Of a stretch of 64,000 bases of DNA, positions 37,839-45,332 are shown one piece after another; the first letter of the stretch is position 1; the number at the start of each line of letters is the position of its first letter. Source of the stretch: Candidatus Saccharimonadota bacterium. GTDB lineage: Bacteria > Patescibacteriota > Saccharimonadia > Saccharimonadales > Saccharimonadaceae. The notes beneath the pieces were generated by a model that saw nothing but the letters and a program-made list of their open reading frames with translations, was not told the origin of the DNA and made no database searches. A program made the translations under genes and the position numbers. The stretch covers positions 1 through 64,000 of the forward strand of contig JAFUAT010000004.1 in NCBI GenBank assembly GCA_017460625.1, in the 5' to 3' direction.

Positions 37839-37924
37839 GCCCGTGTGGTGGAATTGGTAGACACGCTAGCCTTAGGAGCTAGTGCCGATAAAGCATGCTG
37901 GTTCGAGTCCAGTCGCGGGCACCA
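37839..37924 (+). tRNA. tRNA-Leu (anticodon UAG), integration site
   Basis: 86 nt including an encoded CCA. Acceptor gcccgtg pairs with cgcgggc; anticodon stem ctagc/gctag holds loop CTTAGGA; long variable arm; T arm with ggttcgagtcc. The recombinase gene on the opposite strand ends inside it, so it is the probable attachment site of the following element. Confidence 0.95.
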
Positions 37925-39518
37925 AATCTGAATAATCTGGCTCTTTTGGGCCATTTTTCGTGCAAATAACAGAGAAAAGTGGGCTGATGTCGCTGGTTCC
38001 AATTTCCGCAAACTCTCCAGTCTTCAGATTGACGCTCAAGCCGTTTGGAAAAATCATCTTTTGGAGCATCTGTCGCACTTCAAGGGAAGCCCCCCGCCAT
38101 AACTCGGCGGGGTTCTCCATTAGGGCTACAAGACACTTAATCTTGTGCTCGCTGATATTCTTCAGTTCTTTAGCCTCTTCAATCGCTTGCTCAGCCTGTT
38201 TGGTTTTCTTTTGCAAGATGGCAACAAGGCGGTTGTGGTCGACTTCTGAGCGTTGATGTGTGCTGGCTAAGAAAAACGACTCTTCTTCCTGCTCTGCATA
38301 CTCTTTAATCAACGCTTCCTGCTTCTCAATCGTTTTCTGAGCCTTTTCTACACTGTGTTTCATTGCTCGCCCCATAGAGAGCCCGAAGGCTCTTAGAAGG
38401 CTTTTGACAGGTGTGATATTAGTAAGAAGGTCAATAAATTTCTCGTGCATCTTTTCTGGCTTGATAGAGCCAGCACCAACGCACTCAGAGCAGTGGTAGC
38501 GTGGGCTTTTAGCACCACTTCCGCATCGTGGACAGGAACCACGTGCCGCATAGCCACAGTTCTCACAGACGAGCGTTCCCTTGAGCGGGAAGTCTGGGTT
38601 ATTTCTGCGATAGGTTTGCTTCTTATCAGGGTCGCTTCCTCCACGGAGCAACTCTAAAATCAGTAGGTGTTGCTCTAGAGAGATAAGACCGTCCCACTGG
38701 GCTTTAACATACTGTCCATCAGTTAAGGTTGGGGAACAGATATAACCAGCCAAAGCGGGTTGTTGGAGTAGTTCAATCAGAGACTGAAGAGTTAGAGGTT
38801 TGCCCGCTCTAGTCTTGAGTCCGATTTTATCTGCGTATCTCAACGTCTGAGCCTTAGTTTTATCACCTTGTGCGTAGTAATTAAGCACATCTTTAACCTT
38901 TTGGGCAGTGCCATCTCTTAGGTCTGGCTTCAAGATGGTGCGGTAGCGTGGCTTGCCGTCTTTGGTTTTTAAACCAGTTTGCACGTGGTCGTTAATCATC
39001 CCCAGAGGCGGGTAACTCTGCCAGTAACCCTCAGACGCCACCATCTTCATATTATCTGAGGTCGTTTTACTCTTCGTGTCATTATCTAACTGATGAAGAG
39101 CGATGGACAAGTTCATCATAAACTTCCCCTGAGGGGTTTCGTTGATGTCCTCGCAGGTAGAGCGAAGTTCTACCTTATGTTTTGCCAGAGTAGGGGCGAT
39201 GTCCCCAGAGAACGACATCAGGTTACGAGAGATACGTGATAGATTATAAACAATCAACACGTCTGGCTTAATGGTGCCATCTTCAATCTCGTTCAACATC
39301 CGCTGGAGTTCTGGTCGGTTCGCCGTTTTAGCGGAGAAACCGCCATCCCAGTAGATATCTTGCTCTGAGATGTCTAGGTTATGTTTCTTTGCATACTCCA
39401 AAATCGCTTGTTTCTGCACTTCTTTAGAAGCCCCGTCCACCTGTTCTTCAGTTGACACACGGGTATAGCCAACTGCTTTTTTCTTTTCTCCCTGTTCGGG
39501 AGTCATCTGCTTACTCAT
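37872..39518 (-). CDS. Large serine recombinase (integrase of the tRNA-Leu element)
   Basis: Catalyses integration/excision. The N-terminal resolvase domain has YTRVSTEEQ with the catalytic Ser and IVYNLSRISRN; then the recombinase domain, a zinc ribbon (CENCGYAARGSCPRCG with later CSECVG), a coiled coil (about 395-470) and a C-terminal tail. I chose the ATG at 39518, preceded by aaggaggg; the frame is open to 39563. About 548 residues. The last 18 or so codons are read from the antisense of the host tRNA-Leu and the TAA stop is the complement of its anticodon loop, so the C-terminus depends on the insertion site. It overlaps the 95-residue gene upstream by 8 bp. Confidence 0.92.
   Translation of the reverse strand: MSKQMTPEQGEKKKAVGYTRVSTEEQVDGASKEVQKQAILEYAKKHNLDISEQDIYWDGGFSAKTANRPELQRMLNEIEDGTIKPDVLIVYNLSRISRNLMSFSGDIAPTLAKHKVELRSTCEDINETPQGKFMMNLSIALHQLDNDTKSKTTSDNMKMVASEGYWQSYPPLGMINDHVQTGLKTKDGKPRYRTILKPDLRDGTAQKVKDVLNYYAQGDKTKAQTLRYADKIGLKTRAGKPLTLQSLIELLQQPALAGYICSPTLTDGQYVKAQWDGLISLEQHLLILELLRGGSDPDKKQTYRRNNPDFPLKGTLVCENCGYAARGSCPRCGSGAKSPRYHCSECVGAGSIKPEKMHEKFIDLLTNITPVKSLLRAFGLSMGRAMKHSVEKAQKTIEKQEALIKEYAEQEEESFFLASTHQRSEVDHNRLVAILQKKTKQAEQAIEEAKELKNISEHKIKCLVALMENPAELWRGASLEVRQMLQKMIFPNGLSVNLKTGEFAEIGTSDISPLFSVICTKNGPKEPDYSDLVPATGLEPACFIGTSS
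37914..37924. other. Probable attachment site attL at the tRNA-Leu 3' end
   Basis: The 3' end gcgggcacca closes the tRNA and is followed directly by element DNA. The octamer gggcacca recurs at 43637-43644. Confidence 0.45.
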
Positions 39519-39798
39519 AGTCTGAACCCTCCTTAGGTTCGTAAGATTTAGTGATTTTTTCAATCAGTTCCGGGTTAGTCGTCATCATCAGTGAGATTTT
39601 GCCGATGGCGACACTAATCTCTAAGAGGTGTCGGTCGTCAATACCGTCAGCGTCTTTACCGAGGACTTTTCTCAGTTCTTTGACGCTCATAAAATTGGCG
39701 GCTTGAGACTTGGTTTTTGTTGCCGCAGTGAGTTTGCTGGGCAAATCGGCTACAGAAGCCATAAAAAACCTGCCATTTTTCTGCACTAACAACTTCAT
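39511..39798 (-). CDS. Small protein upstream of the recombinase, possible accessory factor
   Basis: 95 residues, mixed charge, no TM, with a helical stretch MSVKELRKVLGKDADGIDDRHLLEISVAIGKI. No family recognised. It overlaps the recombinase start by 8 bp and shares its promoter, so it may be a directionality or control factor for the recombinase (inference from position only). No ribosome-binding site is evident before the ATG at 39798; an internal ATG after ttttt would give a shorter form. Confidence 0.6.
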   Translation of the reverse strand: MKLLVQKNGRFFMASVADLPSKLTAATKTKSQAANFMSVKELRKVLGKDADGIDDRHLLEISVAIGKISLMMTTNPELIEKITKSYEPKEGSDYE

Positions 39799-39925
39799 TA
39801 GTGCTTAGATAAAACGAGGTGTCGTTCCCAGTTGCCGAAGTGGGACAAGAGTTTGTTTTTTCTGCTACTTACTTCCTTTCTGATGTAGTAGAGGGCTTAG
39901 TTAAAAACAAGTTGTCAATACCTAT

Positions 39926-39947
39926 ATTATAGTCCATTTGGAACCAA
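39926..39947 (-). promoter_or_regulatory. Promoter with candidate operator, recombinase operon
   Basis: On the minus strand TATAAT (plus 39926-39931) with ttggttccaaa immediately upstream (plus 39937-39947). The same 11-mer lies upstream of the other leadered promoter of the element at 41443-41453. TTGG and CCAA make it palindromic, suited to a dimeric repressor. Confidence 0.55.
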
Positions 39948-40048
39948 CGTCAAGACCTCCACCAAACTATTTGTAAAAGTGCACTCCCGTAGCACTAAAA
40001 TAGCCCCTGTGAGCCTCTGAGAGGCTCTACAAGGGCGCTTATTCTGTA

Positions 40049-41209
40049 TTACACAATAGCATTGGTGCAAATCGCAGAACCAGTGCTATAATTAAACTCT
40101 TCTAATACGGATTTTCTAAGTTCAGTTTTAGTCAACGTCTGTCCATTTTGCTCATAGGCTTCACAAGTCCTATGAACTTTTCCAAGCACCCATTCTGGCA
40201 TCGTTCCAGTTTGCCAAGTATCACGGTCTCCACCGTTATAATGCCACGGGTATTTTTCACTATTGACAGGGGTATTATCAGCCAAGGCTGGAACTCTTTG
40301 CTCAACTTGAGCAGCAATTCTGATTGCGCTTGCCTTTCTGCCTAGTCTTAAGCCTTCCTCAATCCCTGCAGGAGTATCACCAATCCATCCGCCTATTTTT
40401 ACAGGAGTGTCTGGAAGTTGCCCCCACCACTCTGGAAGAACTTCGTTATTCCCACCATTCCACGTTTCAGGTTCTTGGATGGCAGACACGACATCTTCAA
40501 ATTTATGCAAATTATTTCTTTCAAGAAACTCGTTCTGTCTTTCTGCGTATCTCTGGTCTAACTGCTCTTGGAAGTGCTCGCTTCCGAAGTTGCCAGCGTT
40601 CAAGATTGGCTCCAAAAACAACAAGTCTGCTCTAGCCTCTTTATTACCAATCAATTCTAATGGTAAAAACTGGTATTGTTTATTTCTGCGTTTTTCATCA
40701 GAGTATTTTTTAAGATTTGTTTCCGACCAATTTTTATGGATGTCCGACAGCACATCTATTACAAAATCTTCTTTATCGTCAACCCTTTCTAGACATTCGG
40801 ATAGCACAGAAAAAGTCGCATCATCTTTGTTGCCTTCTAAAACTGAGTCTTTTAAGGATTCGTCGCTCTTCCAGTCAATTCCTCTGGTTTGTAAAGCATT
40901 CCCAATTCCAGAGATTGCTGCTCTGATTGAGTCCCCCGCATAAACTTGCCCCTCCAGTTCTTCCACGGAAGCACCAGAAACTTTTTCTGAGGCTTCTTCA
41001 TCAGACAAACCATTCCAATTCTTTAGTGCATTTTTGGCAATTTCGCGATACACATTGTTGTCAGCAGTAAGAGTTTTTTCTGGTTGTGAGACTGTCTCCG
41101 CTACGGACTTATTGACCTGAAAATCGTTCGCCATCGCTGCTACGCCTTCCCATCCAGTTTCGGTGTTGCTTTGGTCGGTATTACCCGCCACTTCAAATTT
41201 ATTGTCCAT
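40049..41209 (-). CDS. Unknown protein of the integrated element
   Basis: 386 residues from the ATG at 41209, chosen because ggagg precedes it; the frame is open to 41302. Soluble, acidic, no TM. I recognise no family. It has a helical N-terminal half (NVYREIAKNALKNWNGLSDEEA) and a C-terminal half with several Trp (PETWNGG, PEWWGQLP, GGWIGDTPAG) and a late YPWHYNGGDRDTWQTG. The last part is reminiscent of catalytic or binding segments but matches none I know. It has a long structured leader (see 41210). Confidence 0.6.
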   Translation of the reverse strand: MDNKFEVAGNTDQSNTETGWEGVAAMANDFQVNKSVAETVSQPEKTLTADNNVYREIAKNALKNWNGLSDEEASEKVSGASVEELEGQVYAGDSIRAAISGIGNALQTRGIDWKSDESLKDSVLEGNKDDATFSVLSECLERVDDKEDFVIDVLSDIHKNWSETNLKKYSDEKRRNKQYQFLPLELIGNKEARADLLFLEPILNAGNFGSEHFQEQLDQRYAERQNEFLERNNLHKFEDVVSAIQEPETWNGGNNEVLPEWWGQLPDTPVKIGGWIGDTPAGIEEGLRLGRKASAIRIAAQVEQRVPALADNTPVNSEKYPWHYNGGDRDTWQTGTMPEWVLGKVHRTCEAYEQNGQTLTKTELRKSVLEEFNYSTGSAICTNAIV

Positions 41210-41453
41210 TTTTCCTCCAGCGGGGAACCCGCCATTATATTTGATATAAGCACGGGGTTTCCCTAAAACTAAGCGGAACACCCGCAATGGGTGTTCCACC
41301 ACTCATTCTCTACAGCAAGCGGTTAGGCTGACTGGAGCGGGTGCTCCGCTCGGAGTCTAACTCTTTACTTGCCTCGTCAGGGGCAAACTTGCACATAGAT
41401 TTGAATGGTGGAACACTTTAATTATATCATACCAAAGCATCGTTTGGAACCAA
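41210..41453 (-). promoter_or_regulatory. Structured 5' leader and operator-bearing promoter
   Basis: Minus-strand TGaTATAAT (plus 41421-41426) starts a leader of about 205 nt. The first nucleotides (tgttccacca, plus 41406-41415) can pair with tggtggaaca (plus 41292-41301), while the latter overlaps a perfect 9-bp hairpin ggaacaccc/gggtgttcc (plus 41275-41297). These are mutually exclusive. A gcggg/cccgc hairpin (plus 41218-41232 region) sits beside the ggagg site. The ttggttccaaa operator-like word is at 41443-41453. Confidence 0.5.
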
Positions 41454-41479
41454 AAACAAGCGTCCTCAGTTAGTCGCTT

Positions 41480-41818
41480 TTAGCGCTCAGTGGACAGCGT
41501 ATTAAGGCTGAAGCCTTCCGCTGGCGGCATTGCAAAAGGCATATTGTTTAGACTTTTATAGTTAACAGATGGGCGGTTCAGATGGTGCCGCTCGTAGCCT
41601 CTGTAGCCGTGTCGCACTCGCCAAGTTGCATATTTCCATTGCAAGTCTGTCGCCTCAACAACCGCCTTGTTGAAGTCGGGAAACTCCTCTAACCACTTGT
41701 AGTAAGTGCTTCGCCCGATACAAGCCATCTCGCAAGCATCAGTGATAGTGTAGCCGTCTCGTATAGCCCCTACGATAATTTGTGCCCTTTTCTCAGTTAG
41801 TTTGATTTTTCTAGCCAT
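41480..41818 (-). CDS. HTH protein, terminase-small-subunit-like or transposase-type
   Basis: 112 residues from the ATG at 41818. Residues 1-60 form a helix-turn-helix (TITDACEMACIGRSTYYKWLEEFPDFNKAV) like those of phage terminase small subunits and homeodomain-like HTH_23 proteins. The tail is basic and Tyr/Arg/His-rich. A TATAAT box lies 6 nt before the ATG, so the message should be leaderless. Paralogous in its HTH to the gene at 42009. A packaging role is unlikely without a large subunit; regulation or partitioning is as likely. Confidence 0.65.
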   Translation of the reverse strand: MARKIKLTEKRAQIIVGAIRDGYTITDACEMACIGRSTYYKWLEEFPDFNKAVVEATDLQWKYATWRVRHGYRGYERHHLNRPSVNYKSLNNMPFAMPPAEGFSLNTLSTER

Positions 41819-42008
41819 AAGTCCATTATATTCCTTATGGGTCTCGCATTTTTTGGCGAGTATATTATATGAGGTCGGCAAAAAACGTTTATCTGTTCAG
41901 AAACTCCACTTCTGTCTAATCTGTCTATTTTCAATTTTGCAAAAGTCCAACATTTGAACTTACTCTATCTAAAGCCAGCAACAGAGGTAGGACTACGTGA
42001 ACAGTGGC

Positions 42009-42548
42009 TTAATCACCAACATTGTAGACTGAGTTTCGTGCCGTCAACTCACGGTGCAAAGCGGGGTATTTCCGCTTAAATACATCAAGGGAGAGGCTGA
42101 ACTGAACAAGATGCCCGCCTTGCGGCTTGAGATATTCCACTGCTCCGTTGCTAGCGTTGATGCACGGCTCCATCGGATGGTCGTCAGCAATAGTTCCGTA
42201 TCTGAGGCGTAGCCCATCATAAACAAGAGGCTTGTCATTCTGTTTGGCTTCTTCTACCTCTTGTCTGATTTTCTGTTTTTCTGCCTGTTTTTCCGCTTCT
42301 TGCTGGAGTTTTGTGGCACTTCTGCGGTAAGTCCGCACCCCGCTTTTCTTCAGATTGTTCACACTTAGTTCTTGTAGCCTCACGGCTTCCAGATATTCGG
42401 CGTCAAAGTCAGAAAAACGTCTTCGCCAACGGCTCAAAGTCATATCACTGATACCGACAAGAGAACAAGCGTCTTTAACAGTCCTACCATCTCTGATATG
42501 CTTTAGTAGTTTCGCCCTTGTGCCATCAGTATATTTTGTTGCCCTCAT
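42009..42548 (-). CDS. HTH protein, paralogue of the 41480 gene, with coiled coil
   Basis: 179 residues. N-terminal HTH (TVKDACSLVGISDMTLSRWRRRFSDFDAEYLEAV) parallels the neighbour protein, with the same YxTDGxR/xTEKRA lead-in, DAC and F-x-D-F spacing. A Glu/Gln/Lys coiled coil (about 75-100) and a C-terminal region ending in NSVYNVGD follow. TACAAT with TGt before it lies 6 nt upstream of the ATG. Likely DNA-binding; whether repressor or terminase-like is open. Confidence 0.65.
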   Translation of the reverse strand: MRATKYTDGTRAKLLKHIRDGRTVKDACSLVGISDMTLSRWRRRFSDFDAEYLEAVRLQELSVNNLKKSGVRTYRRSATKLQQEAEKQAEKQKIRQEVEEAKQNDKPLVYDGLRLRYGTIADDHPMEPCINASNGAVEYLKPQGGHLVQFSLSLDVFKRKYPALHRELTARNSVYNVGD

Positions 42549-42681
42549 ACTCTGATTGTAACATTAGATGTGGGCTTGTTTTTTCATCAAAAAAGGCGGC
42601 TTTGAGCCAACCTAAAAGAGGGCGGTGTCCCGCATATATCCAATGCAGGTCCTGCCCTCATTACTTATGATTATACTCCAA

Positions 42682-43065
42682 TTACTTCTCAAAATCAAGA
42701 GTTTTTCCGCTCTTTGTGATGATTTTGAGCCGCTTTAGACTTCCTGACTTCTTGAACTCGTTTTCTAACTCTCTGAGACATTTAGTCTGATGCCGCTTCG
42801 TATGGCGAAGGTCAACAATGACGTTATGAGACTGTTTTACTGCCCTCTGAATAGTGTTCGCCATTAGATACTTGCCCTCGCCCAGTGGAGCCTTCATCTC
42901 CCACTTGAGTCCACCCATCTTAATATCAGGAGTATGCACTCCCTCAATGTTGCTGGTGGGAATGAGGTCAACATCAAAACCCTGTTCCGTCAGAAAAACC
43001 GCAGTTGCGTTCTCGTGAGTCTTTAAGACTACACCGTTAGGAGTGATTTTACCTCGTTTCTTCAT
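42682..43065 (-). CDS. Probable nuclease related to CdiA-CT tRNase toxin domains
   Basis: 127 residues, no signal peptide. The C-terminal block KWEMKAPLGEGKYLMANTI, RAVKQSHNVIVDLR, and KRLKIITKSGKTLDF matches the pattern I know from CdiA C-terminal tRNA nuclease-type domains in polymorphic toxins and phage head proteins (W-E-x-K-x-P, AxxQSxNVxxDLR, IxxxxG). Here the domain stands alone, without a delivery module. No immunity gene is evident next to it. It has a leaderless promoter (TGaTATAAT, plus 43072-43077, 6 nt gap). Assignment is from memory of the motif pattern, not a search. Confidence 0.6.
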   Translation of the reverse strand: MKKRGKITPNGVVLKTHENATAVFLTEQGFDVDLIPTSNIEGVHTPDIKMGGLKWEMKAPLGEGKYLMANTIQRAVKQSHNVIVDLRHTKRHQTKCLRELENEFKKSGSLKRLKIITKSGKTLDFEK

Positions 43066-43745
43066 TGCTTGATTATATCACTTATCACCCCTTATTGCTA
43101 CCCGTTTTTTTTAGTGTTGGTGCAGATAGTCGTGTGTAAAACACCTCCTCTTAGCAACCCTACCCCAGATTAGTTTTGAAGTTAACAGGGATGAGCGTGC
43201 CAAACTGTGGAAAAAGTCCTAGTTCTAAAAAACAACTCCAGAATATGTGTTACTATAGAGGTAGAAGGCGGTCGCAATTTGTAAAAATCAGCGTCCGCCG
43301 CAACTTAAAAACTCCCGTTTTGTGTCGTCAGTTGCATTTGCACCTGCCTCACGGAGACCGCTCTCCGCTTATGCGTTCGTGCGTGCTGTCCGAGTCCTCG
43401 TGTTCGTCCTCTTCATCAGATTTGGTCGTTCGTGGTTTCTCGTGTCTCTGCCCCTTCGCTTGGTGATGTGAACAGTCCCTCGTGTTTGTCTTCTCCCGCA
43501 TCCGCTCCTGTCCACTTGCATACAACATACTGGTTCCACGGGAGTAGGGGATGTGTTTGGTAAGCGTGGACTCCTCTAGTAGGTTTTGCCAGCGTAATAA
43601 CTCCTTATAGATTAGGTTCCAATTCGATAGTGGTAGGGGCACCACGATATTTAAAAGCCGGTTTCTCGGTCTTTTTTGTTTTCGCGCAAAAAATATAAAA
43701 AAGTTGTAGCATTTTAAAAAATCGTGTGATATAATCGTAAGCAGG
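43066..43745. other. 680 bp without a convincing gene, right end of the element
   Basis: Contains divergent promoter sites at the edges, a hairpin ggcggtcgc/gcgtccgcc (43267-43299), and two similar segments cctcgtgttcgtcct (43396-43410) and cctcgtgtttgtctt (43478-43492). A minus-strand frame of about 50 codons (roughly 43349-43500), highly charged, has an aggag close to its ATG but no other support. The tRNA-like gggcacca is at 43637-43644. Could hold an origin or transfer site; nothing is proven. Confidence 0.5.
43730..43745 (+). promoter_or_regulatory. Extended -10 promoter of the FAD oxidase gene
   Basis: TGaTATAAT with hexamer 43730-43735 and 10 nt to the ATG at 43746. Confidence 0.6.
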
Positions 43746-45332
43746 ATGGGCAAGGTTGCAAAGTATTTGAATCAGTTAACTATTGGCAATGTTTTTGACA
43801 CGCCTGACGTGCTCGAAACATACGCCAATGATTGTTCTGCTCTAAAAGTTAAGCCAAAACTAGTAGCTCTACCGGAATCCACCGAAGACATTCGCAAAAT
43901 AATGCGTTTTTGTTATCAGCTTGCAATGAGAGATATTAAGATTCCGGTTACAGTACGTGGCTCTGGTCTTGACGAAATGGGAGCAGATCTTTCTAATAGT
44001 TTAGTTATTTCTACTGAAAAATTAAACCGCTTGCTAGAATCGGATAAGCGTGAGAGATTAGTGCGCGTGCAAGCTGGAATTACCCTAAAGGAGCTAAACA
44101 CAGCACTCTCTATCAATGGTCTAACGATTCCAATTGGTGGTCATGACAATGAGACAATCGGTGGGTTAATTTCTAACTGCCCGAGTGATGATTTTTCTGG
44201 AAAATACGGTGGAATCATGGGGTATGTTGAAAGAATTGAAGTCGTGCTTCCGGATGGTAGTATTCTCCAGACAAACCGCCTAAGCGGACGCGCTGTTGCA
44301 AATAAAGCCAAGGAAAAGACTCTCGAGGGGAGTATTTACAAAAAATTGTCCCAGGCAGTAAAGTCTAATAGTGATTTGATTAATAATATTCAGAAAAACA
44401 ACACCGGCTCGGCAGGGTATCCAACGATTGCACAGTCCAGGCGCGGTAGTTCTATTGATCTCGCCCCACTGTTCTTTGGTGCACAAGGCACGCTTGGCGT
44501 AATTACCGAGGTGATTCTAAGAGCTGTTCCGATTAAATCGCAGGTTCGGCGCGTAGTCGCGACTTTTGAAGATTTTGAGACCGCAAAAAGATTTCTAGAT
44601 CTTGCTAATTCGATGCATCCAAAGGAATTGAATGTTTATGATGTAAGGATTATTAAAATAGCGGAGGAATCTGGAAAGAGACTGAGCGAGATTACTCGCA
44701 AACTTTCTACTGGATTTGTGGTGTTCGCGAAATTTGACGACCGAACCAAATCCTGCATTAGAAAAATATCTGGTATTAGAAAACTTCTTCCTGGTACGGC
44801 TCAACTTATCACCGAATCGCCAAAAAATATACCGAAACTCGACGAATTCGAGAATTCATTGATTGCTTTTCTAAATAGCGCAAAAAGTGGCGAAAGAGTC
44901 CCTCTTCTTACCGATTTCTATATGCCGTCCGAAAGTTTGAGTAGATTTATTTTGGATTTAGGCGTTTTAGAAAAGAGTCTAAAACTTGACTTGGCGTTCT
45001 TTGGCTCATATTCTGCCTCTAACTATAGTTTAAGGCCGCGTTTTAAGATTGACGATCCTGAATTTAGCAGAAAAGCTGTTTCATTCCTGAGAGCTGGCGC
45101 GTATATTATCGAGCGCGAGGGCGGTTCTATTACTGGAGGTTCGCCAGAAGGTCGCGTGAAGGCTCTAGCCACAAATGAAAATATGCCAGCGAACGAAAAG
45201 AGTCTGTATTCTGAAATCAAACAAATTTTCGACCCAAGGGGGATAATGAATCCTTCGGTTAAACTTGGCGCGGATTCTCGCTTTACTATTACACATTTTA
45301 GAACTACAAGTTCTTCGAAAGTCGTGTTATAA
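43746..45332 (+). CDS. FAD-binding oxidoreductase (PCMH/GlcD-like)
   Basis: 528 residues. N-terminal FAD-binding PCMH domain (about 35-260) with VRGSGLDEMGADLSN, VQAGITLKELN and GFFGAQGTLGVITEV-like FFGAQGTLGVITEVIL. The C-terminal region ends with IKQIFDPRGIMNPSVKLG, the family tail. This is the 2-hydroxyacid dehydrogenase type; lactate or glycolate are candidates, but the substrate pocket is not readable. Single gene, upstream of tig. Confidence 0.88.
   Translation: MGKVAKYLNQLTIGNVFDTPDVLETYANDCSALKVKPKLVALPESTEDIRKIMRFCYQLAMRDIKIPVTVRGSGLDEMGADLSNSLVISTEKLNRLLESDKRERLVRVQAGITLKELNTALSINGLTIPIGGHDNETIGGLISNCPSDDFSGKYGGIMGYVERIEVVLPDGSILQTNRLSGRAVANKAKEKTLEGSIYKKLSQAVKSNSDLINNIQKNNTGSAGYPTIAQSRRGSSIDLAPLFFGAQGTLGVITEVILRAVPIKSQVRRVVATFEDFETAKRFLDLANSMHPKELNVYDVRIIKIAEESGKRLSEITRKLSTGFVVFAKFDDRTKSCIRKISGIRKLLPGTAQLITESPKNIPKLDEFENSLIAFLNSAKSGERVPLLTDFYMPSESLSRFILDLGVLEKSLKLDLAFFGSYSASNYSLRPRFKIDDPEFSRKAVSFLRAGAYIIEREGGSITGGSPEGRVKALATNENMPANEKSLYSEIKQIFDPRGIMNPSVKLGADSRFTITHFRTTSSSKVVL

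Follow-up and report, generated by a model that had tools for sequence, protein, structure and literature searches.

In the integrated element at the tRNA-Leu(UAG) gene of the window (the whole 64,000-nucleotide stretch of DNA that was analysed), the sequence makes it very probable that attP lies within the recombinase gene and that the C-terminal tail of the recombinase is exchanged on integration. Our broader reading, which is tentative and to which we assign a probability of roughly 45%, is that the element belongs to a bacterial family of large serine recombinases (LSRs) with many tRNA targets, in which integration would exchange the C-terminus, so that the circle would encode an integration form and the chromosome a host-completed one; such an exchange would be a built-in direction switch, with its own chromosomal variant for each tRNA target. 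Coordinates of all features are given in Table 1.

Table 1. Features of the integrated element and its immediate surroundings, in window coordinates.
Feature	Position	Strand	Basis or remark
tRNA-Leu(UAG), intact target gene	37839-37924	+	ARAGORN
Integrated form of the large serine recombinase, 548 aa from ATG 39518	37872-39518	-	Pfam, PHROG
Host-derived last 14 recombinase codons and stop, ATGLEPACFIGTSS then stop	37872-37916	-	antisense of tRNA-Leu(UAG)
attL core GGGCACCA, final bases of tRNA-Leu(UAG)	37917-37924	.	sequence comparison with attR
Hairpin and U-run inside recombinase coding sequence	37938-37958	+	by eye: TGGC..GCCA then TTTTT
95-aa ORF, overlaps recombinase start, no family	39511-39798	-	
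417-aa ORF, no family match	40049-41302	-	
HTH protein, weak likeness to phage terminase small subunits	41480-41881	-	phrog_4102 7.5e-10
Second HTH / terminase-small-like protein	42009-42548	-	phrog_4102 6.5e-8; HTH_23 1.4e-8
CdiA_C-domain (PF18451) protein, weakly like C-terminal part of phage head maturation protease family	42682-43065	-	
Detached native recombinase C-terminal tail, LPLSNWNLIYKELLRWQNLLEESTLTKHIPYSRGTS... to stop	43349-43642	-	in recombinase frame only when circular
attR element-side half-site TCCAATTCGATAGTGGTAGGGGCACCA, conserved across family elements	43618-43644	+	
attR core GGGCACCA	43637-43644	.	identical to last eight bases of the tRNA
Displaced original host tRNA terminator CCGGTTTCTCGGTCTTTTTT	43656-43684	+	directly right of element
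Host FAD-linked oxidase	43746-45332	+	

The original prediction held that the recombinase gene runs into the antisense of tRNA-Leu and takes its stop codon from the complement of the anticodon loop, and both parts stand. The open reading frame stops inside the tRNA gene, at 37872-37874 (TTA on the plus strand, TAA on the minus strand), and as the anticodon TAG occupies 37873-37875, the stop codon covers U33 together with anticodon bases 1 and 2. The integrated recombinase takes its last codons from the 3' half of the tRNA gene, read antisense; the tail ...LVPATGLEPACFIGTSS corresponds to the opposite strand of the T-arm, the variable region and the anticodon stem. The best start is the ATG at 39518, which is preceded by a ribosome-binding site, AAGGAGG. 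An antisense-tRNA tail alone is unremarkable, because the T-loop sequence TTCRA read backwards gives '(G)[LI]EP'. Its recurrence is beyond chance: all 33 distinct full-length family recombinases that we examined (33/33) share the antisense tRNA ending, across 11 tRNA kinds.

By its sequence the product is a large serine recombinase of predicted activity. It matches the Pfam Resolvase family (PF00239, 2.9e-28), the Recombinase family (PF07508, 2.6e-4, barely over its cut-off) and PHROG integrase family 95 (2.2e-62). The resolvase catalytic domain with its serine nucleophile is present, R35, V36, S37 and T38 being invariant in the family alignment, as are zinc-ribbon cysteines (C333xxC336...C358xxC361) and a putative coiled coil. 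A profile of the recombinase matches solved chains of the TP901-1, phiC31 and A118 integrases, including the C-terminal chain of A118, as well as CcrB, and the protein is related to CcrB/XisF-type recombinases.

The element spans 37925-43644 (5.7 kb) and is inserted at the 3' end of the tRNA gene, which is intact. We located attR via the conserved half-site, and attL and attR have only GGGCACCA in common; a tRNA fragment of tens of bases is absent from the far end, and a search of this genome for a second copy of the 24-nt tRNA end, as a long tRNA-fragment attR, found none except other tRNAs. An inverted short match at 43416 (ACCAAATCTGA) was considered as attR and judged to be due to chance, the true attR sharing only 8 bp. 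The half-site resembles a T-loop (TTCGAT), with TTCGA beginning 22 nt before the CCA end as against 23 in a tRNA, and is possibly a T-arm mimic recognised by the recombinase.

In related genomes, DNA that immediately follows other tRNA genes aligns with the flank to the right of attR. In several relatives that lack the element, tRNA-Leu(UAG) stands directly upstream of the FAD-linked oxidase; in one of these (G018) the gap between the two genes is about 60 bp, and the promoter-like sequence before the oxidase is the same as in the window. The exact empty site of the window's own species was not found among the related genomes searched. Two near relatives (L038, 1-560, and L086) have a small membrane-protein gene (MAEILKIDGNKVKIG...) after tRNA-Leu(UAG), which is absent from 43645-43745 of the window. 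The hairpin and U-run at 37938-37958 probably represent a replacement terminator that the element brings for the tRNA. Hairpins with a T-run directly after the tRNA were found in 15 of 21 family elements, by a strict scan that required a stem of at least 5 exact pairs and missed the window hairpin and five others.

To the right of the recombinase lie five more small genes on the same strand, followed by the oxidase at 43746 and clear host genes. When the element is compared with PICI-like phage satellites, its packaging-type candidates are the two terminase-small-like HTH proteins and the CdiA_C/head-protease-like protein, all of them weak matches; together they suggest a phage or phage-satellite origin. 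A small ORF directly upstream of the recombinase, a candidate directionality factor, is seen both here and in the second element of this genome described below (39511-39798 in the window; 1787-2032 of L162), the two having only the short motif SVKExRKxLG in common.

The circle was reconstructed in silico by joining the element ends at the common core and reading the recombinase frame through, with a predicted junction sequence on the recombinase strand of TTCAGATTTGGTGCCCCTACCACTATCGAATTGG. The joined ends yield one open frame that continues into 43642-43349 and reads LVP-LPLSNWNLIYKELLRWQNLLEESTLTKHIPYSRGTS..., 98 residues past the junction, against LVP-ATGLEPACFIGTSS, 17 residues, in the chromosomal state. 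The last 14 tRNA-derived residues thus give way to 95 element-encoded residues, and the recombinase, read from ATG 39518, goes from 548 aa in the chromosomal state to 629 aa in the reconstructed circle. Most relatives have a shorter tail than the window, in which the last ~30 tail residues lack conservation; between the window and its closest counterpart, the codon-substitution pattern discussed below persists to about tail residue 60 and then stops.

Related elements repeat this design. The half-site (TCCANTTCGA...ACCA), as conserved DNA, marked the other end of five further elements, and five of the first six elements were located by this DNA motif and not by protein. An in-frame tail was restored in all six, with similarity reaching well past the half-site (between the window and genome G054, SNWNxIYxELLRWxxLLExSxLxKHIPY). 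Among the elements with both ends mapped, which occupy 9 tRNA kinds in 19 genomes of Saccharibacteria, 21 of 21 have an in-frame junction in the reconstructed circle that restores a conserved tail (SxWN...), a figure that overstates the statistics because related elements are not independent events. A frame open for at least 30 codons across the junction is found in the recombinase phase in all 21, as against 1/21 and 6/21 for the two alternative phases. Tails encoded in the circles of these elements are 34-98 aa long (34-52 in the relatives of the window), compared with 11-56 aa for the chromosomal tails. A 6-bp block, NNACCA, from the tRNA end is common to attL and attR in every one of the 21, and identity drops quickly on both sides; a core of this size with such rapid loss of identity suits a serine recombinase. 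The original prediction that excision re-encodes the C-terminus and changes the length of the protein therefore has strong sequence support, from the reconstructed change from 548 to 629 aa and from related junctions that are in frame in 21 of 21 cases.

An alternative view of the tail is that it is a microprotein in its own right, made from attR while the element is integrated, and no part of the recombinase. We consider this very improbable. The core does often provide an ATG ahead of the tail frame (CCAT on the other strand), but the start codon varies with the host base after CCA (ATG, GTG, TTG or CTG), the host DNA upstream at attR is unrelated, making a conserved ribosome-binding site impossible, and the tail frame is in phase with the recombinase across the core in all 21 elements.

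Substitutions between tails beyond the half-site number 43/37/85 at codon positions 1, 2 and 3 (p = 1.1e-6, for pairs that share some ancestry), and the pooled pN/pS of the tail is 0.41, again from pairs that are not fully independent. The tail is, judging from these patterns, under protein-level selection, and as the chromosome keeps this stretch apart from the recombinase, such selection would act when the element is joined end to end. A conserved, selected tail replaces the tRNA-derived end in the reconstructed circle, and protein length and sequence would therefore differ between the two states.

The same evidence bears on whether the arrangement is an artefact, in which an ORF of a dead or immobile remnant reads by chance into the antisense strand of a tRNA and tail conservation reflects att-site DNA alone. 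Frames that stay open and end in a 'GIEP'-like sequence are routine in antisense tRNA, and the collections searched for a free circle gave no sign of mobility; set against this are the excess of third-position changes past the attachment half-site, the restored frame in 21/21 elements and the recurrence of the design in 33/33 recombinases at 11 tRNA kinds, which leave the artefact scarcely credible and largely refuted.

A natural comparison is provided by two tRNA-Glu sites. Recombinases 99.8% identical in protein (G046, L072; and L213) are found at tRNA-Glu(UUC) in one genome and at tRNA-Glu(CUC) in the other; their chromosomal C-termini differ (MVISAGVEPALSG and VVIPEGVEPSIFWMRTRR...), whereas the detached attR tails at both sites open with the same NRVQSNWNILVEDFYRVRGIISILYPTNYIPGLSRTNEYTTQ. 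The host tRNA therefore sets the chromosomal C-terminus and the element sets the detached one.

Within the genome of the window, a second element of the same design lies at tRNA-Arg(CCU) (G000:C7:25873-30183, L162; 4.3 kb), with its own detached recombinase tail. More distant serine recombinases of this genome (L068, G000:C7:1-15000, and L069, G000:C11) also end antisense in tRNA genes, Arg-UCG and Lys-CUU; a 22-bp repeat is present in the L068 element, and reconstruction of its circle predicts a changed C-terminus there as well. Distant serine recombinases of other families that end in tRNAs were left out of the family counts. Where a host is named, it belongs to Candidatus Saccharibacteria, in many cases from the ruminant gut. 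A profile of the tail finds copies in 38 of the 174 genomes of the genus. When 394 genomes of the taxonomic family were searched with a profile of the recombinase C-terminus plus tail, the match to every intact recombinase ended at or near the core, and the tail part matched at another place.

A contiguous, intact body-plus-tail gene was found in none of the collections searched. Short remnants of the body joined to a tail in the predicted frame occur only at old or tandem insertions (L155 8052-8142, L209 9980-10204, L074 11773-11893 and L213 1700-6381). Tandem or old insertions with recombinase remnants, together with several orphan tails lacking a recombinase, are signs of repeated insertion at one tRNA. 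The viral, phage and plasmid collections searched contained no free circle or circle junction, an outcome that depends on the content of those collections: in viral contigs no genuine match came from the recombinase alignment, the body-tail alignment, a single recombinase or the attP pattern, and the plasmid and phage collections gave matches only to remote serine integrases.

We propose the following mechanism. An integrative element of 5.7 kb, driven by its large serine recombinase, would insert at the CCA end of tRNA genes. With attP inside the recombinase's own coding sequence, the free circle would hold a full-length gene (about 629 aa) ending in the conserved C-terminal tail, and recombination between attP and the tRNA end within the 6-bp NNACCA core would cut the gene at that point. 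The body would then stay beside the tRNA and gain a short antisense-tRNA tail, while the native tail would be stranded at attR; the element would supply a new tRNA terminator within the recombinase frame, and the tRNA would therefore stay intact. Excision would re-form the circle. Of the two forms, the full-length one is probably competent for integration, and the chromosomal one probably has a reduced or redirected activity. Integration would then limit itself, and excision could be tied to the arrival of a full-length copy or to an RDF.

Of the functional part of this scheme we are less confident than of the anatomy. The functional step is argued by analogy with Mx8 and the archaeal suicidal integrases, discussed below; a form-dependent change of activity is favoured because the tail is conserved and is lost exactly on integration. 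On balance we expect the two protein forms to differ truly in activity, and it is plausible that the C-terminal swap acts as an on/off or direction switch. The swap might instead be real and neutral for activity, with a dispensable tail and an attP placed there only as a compact module with the recombinase. C-terminal sequence typical of LSRs is already reached by the conserved body ahead of the junction, so that the tail might not be needed for catalysis or DNA binding, and most integrated copies retain an intact recombinase body. A dispensable appendage, however, would have no need of the protein conservation that the tail maintains across elements, many tRNAs and genera, and we regard a neutral swap as rather unlikely.

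The main alternative to a form-dependent change of activity is a suicide-type lock, with an inactive chromosomal form and exit only when an incoming or tandem element provides a full-length copy. The many integrated copies, the tandem and old junctions and the orphan tails without a recombinase suggest one-way accumulation, and a published model for archaeal suicidal integrases (PMC8371274) offers a precedent. In these integrases (SSV, pTN3 and pT26-2 types) the recombination site lies in the gene, integration disrupts the gene and excision may need an intact copy; they are tyrosine recombinases, and self-disrupting integrases are said to occur only in archaea (PMC8371274). The likeness lies in a recombination site within the gene and disruption at the attachment site on integration. 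In the archaeal case, however, the split removes the catalytic domain, whereas here the catalytic, recombinase and DNA-binding zinc domains all remain in the body, as one intact gene, and only a C-terminal appendage is lost and exchanged. A suicide-type lock is accordingly a doubtful account of the family, and we retain the form-dependent change of activity as our preferred reading.

The Int protein of the Myxococcus phage Mx8 is a tyrosine recombinase. Its gene (intP; Tojo 1996, Magrini 1999, as summarised in PMC6070905) contains attP within the coding sequence, integration gives int a new 3' end, and function is reported to be altered and not abolished; the arrangement was called a molecular switch (PMC6070905); Mx8 is listed among integrases that extend across attP (PMC4383910). 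The element of the window, with its circle reconstructed from sequence, resembles Mx8 in having attP within the coding sequence and a 3' end that would be replaced on integration. It differs in that Mx8 is one phage with a tyrosine recombinase, whereas the present system is a family of large serine recombinases with at least 11 tRNA kinds as targets and a 6-bp core, carried by small elements of Saccharibacteria.

With the LSRs (TP901-1, A118, phiC31, Bxb1) and Ccr recombinases the family has in common the resolvase catalytic and recombinase domains, a Cys4 zinc ribbon, a putative coiled-coil region and a very short core. To our knowledge, attP lies outside the integrase coding sequence in characterised large serine integrases. 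The attB of these enzymes is not known to be a tRNA gene (PMC4383910), whereas the present family has both an attP inside the coding sequence and a tRNA-gene attB. That serine recombinases in tRNA genes are uncommon, as had been remarked at the outset, agrees with a 2014 statement that the class was not known (PMC4383910). In inserting at a tRNA 3' end, keeping the tRNA intact and lying between the tRNA and a tRNA-like fragment, the elements resemble tRNA-targeting islands as defined by Islander, but such islands have tyrosine integrases and longer tRNA fragments, compared with the usual 6-8 bp of common tRNA sequence here. A serine-recombinase version of this kind was not described in the literature searched, which included few subscription papers; one that targets many tRNAs appears undescribed, a judgement of novelty that is provisional.

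Direction control in serine integrases normally relies on separate factors, and a C-terminal exchange coupled to integration would therefore amount to built-in control. If true, such a natural exchange would be a route to one-way or self-limiting integration tools. For annotators, there is a warning that recombinase database entries ending in 'GIEP' are chromosomal hybrids and not the native protein, and islands with tRNA repeats of 6-8 bp may escape fragment-based island finders. The family itself comprises numerous serine recombinases that insert into tRNA genes and have a common core of only 6 bp, the class described in 2014 as not known (PMC4383910). Its tRNA-dependent C-termini form a natural series of enzyme variants for comparison.
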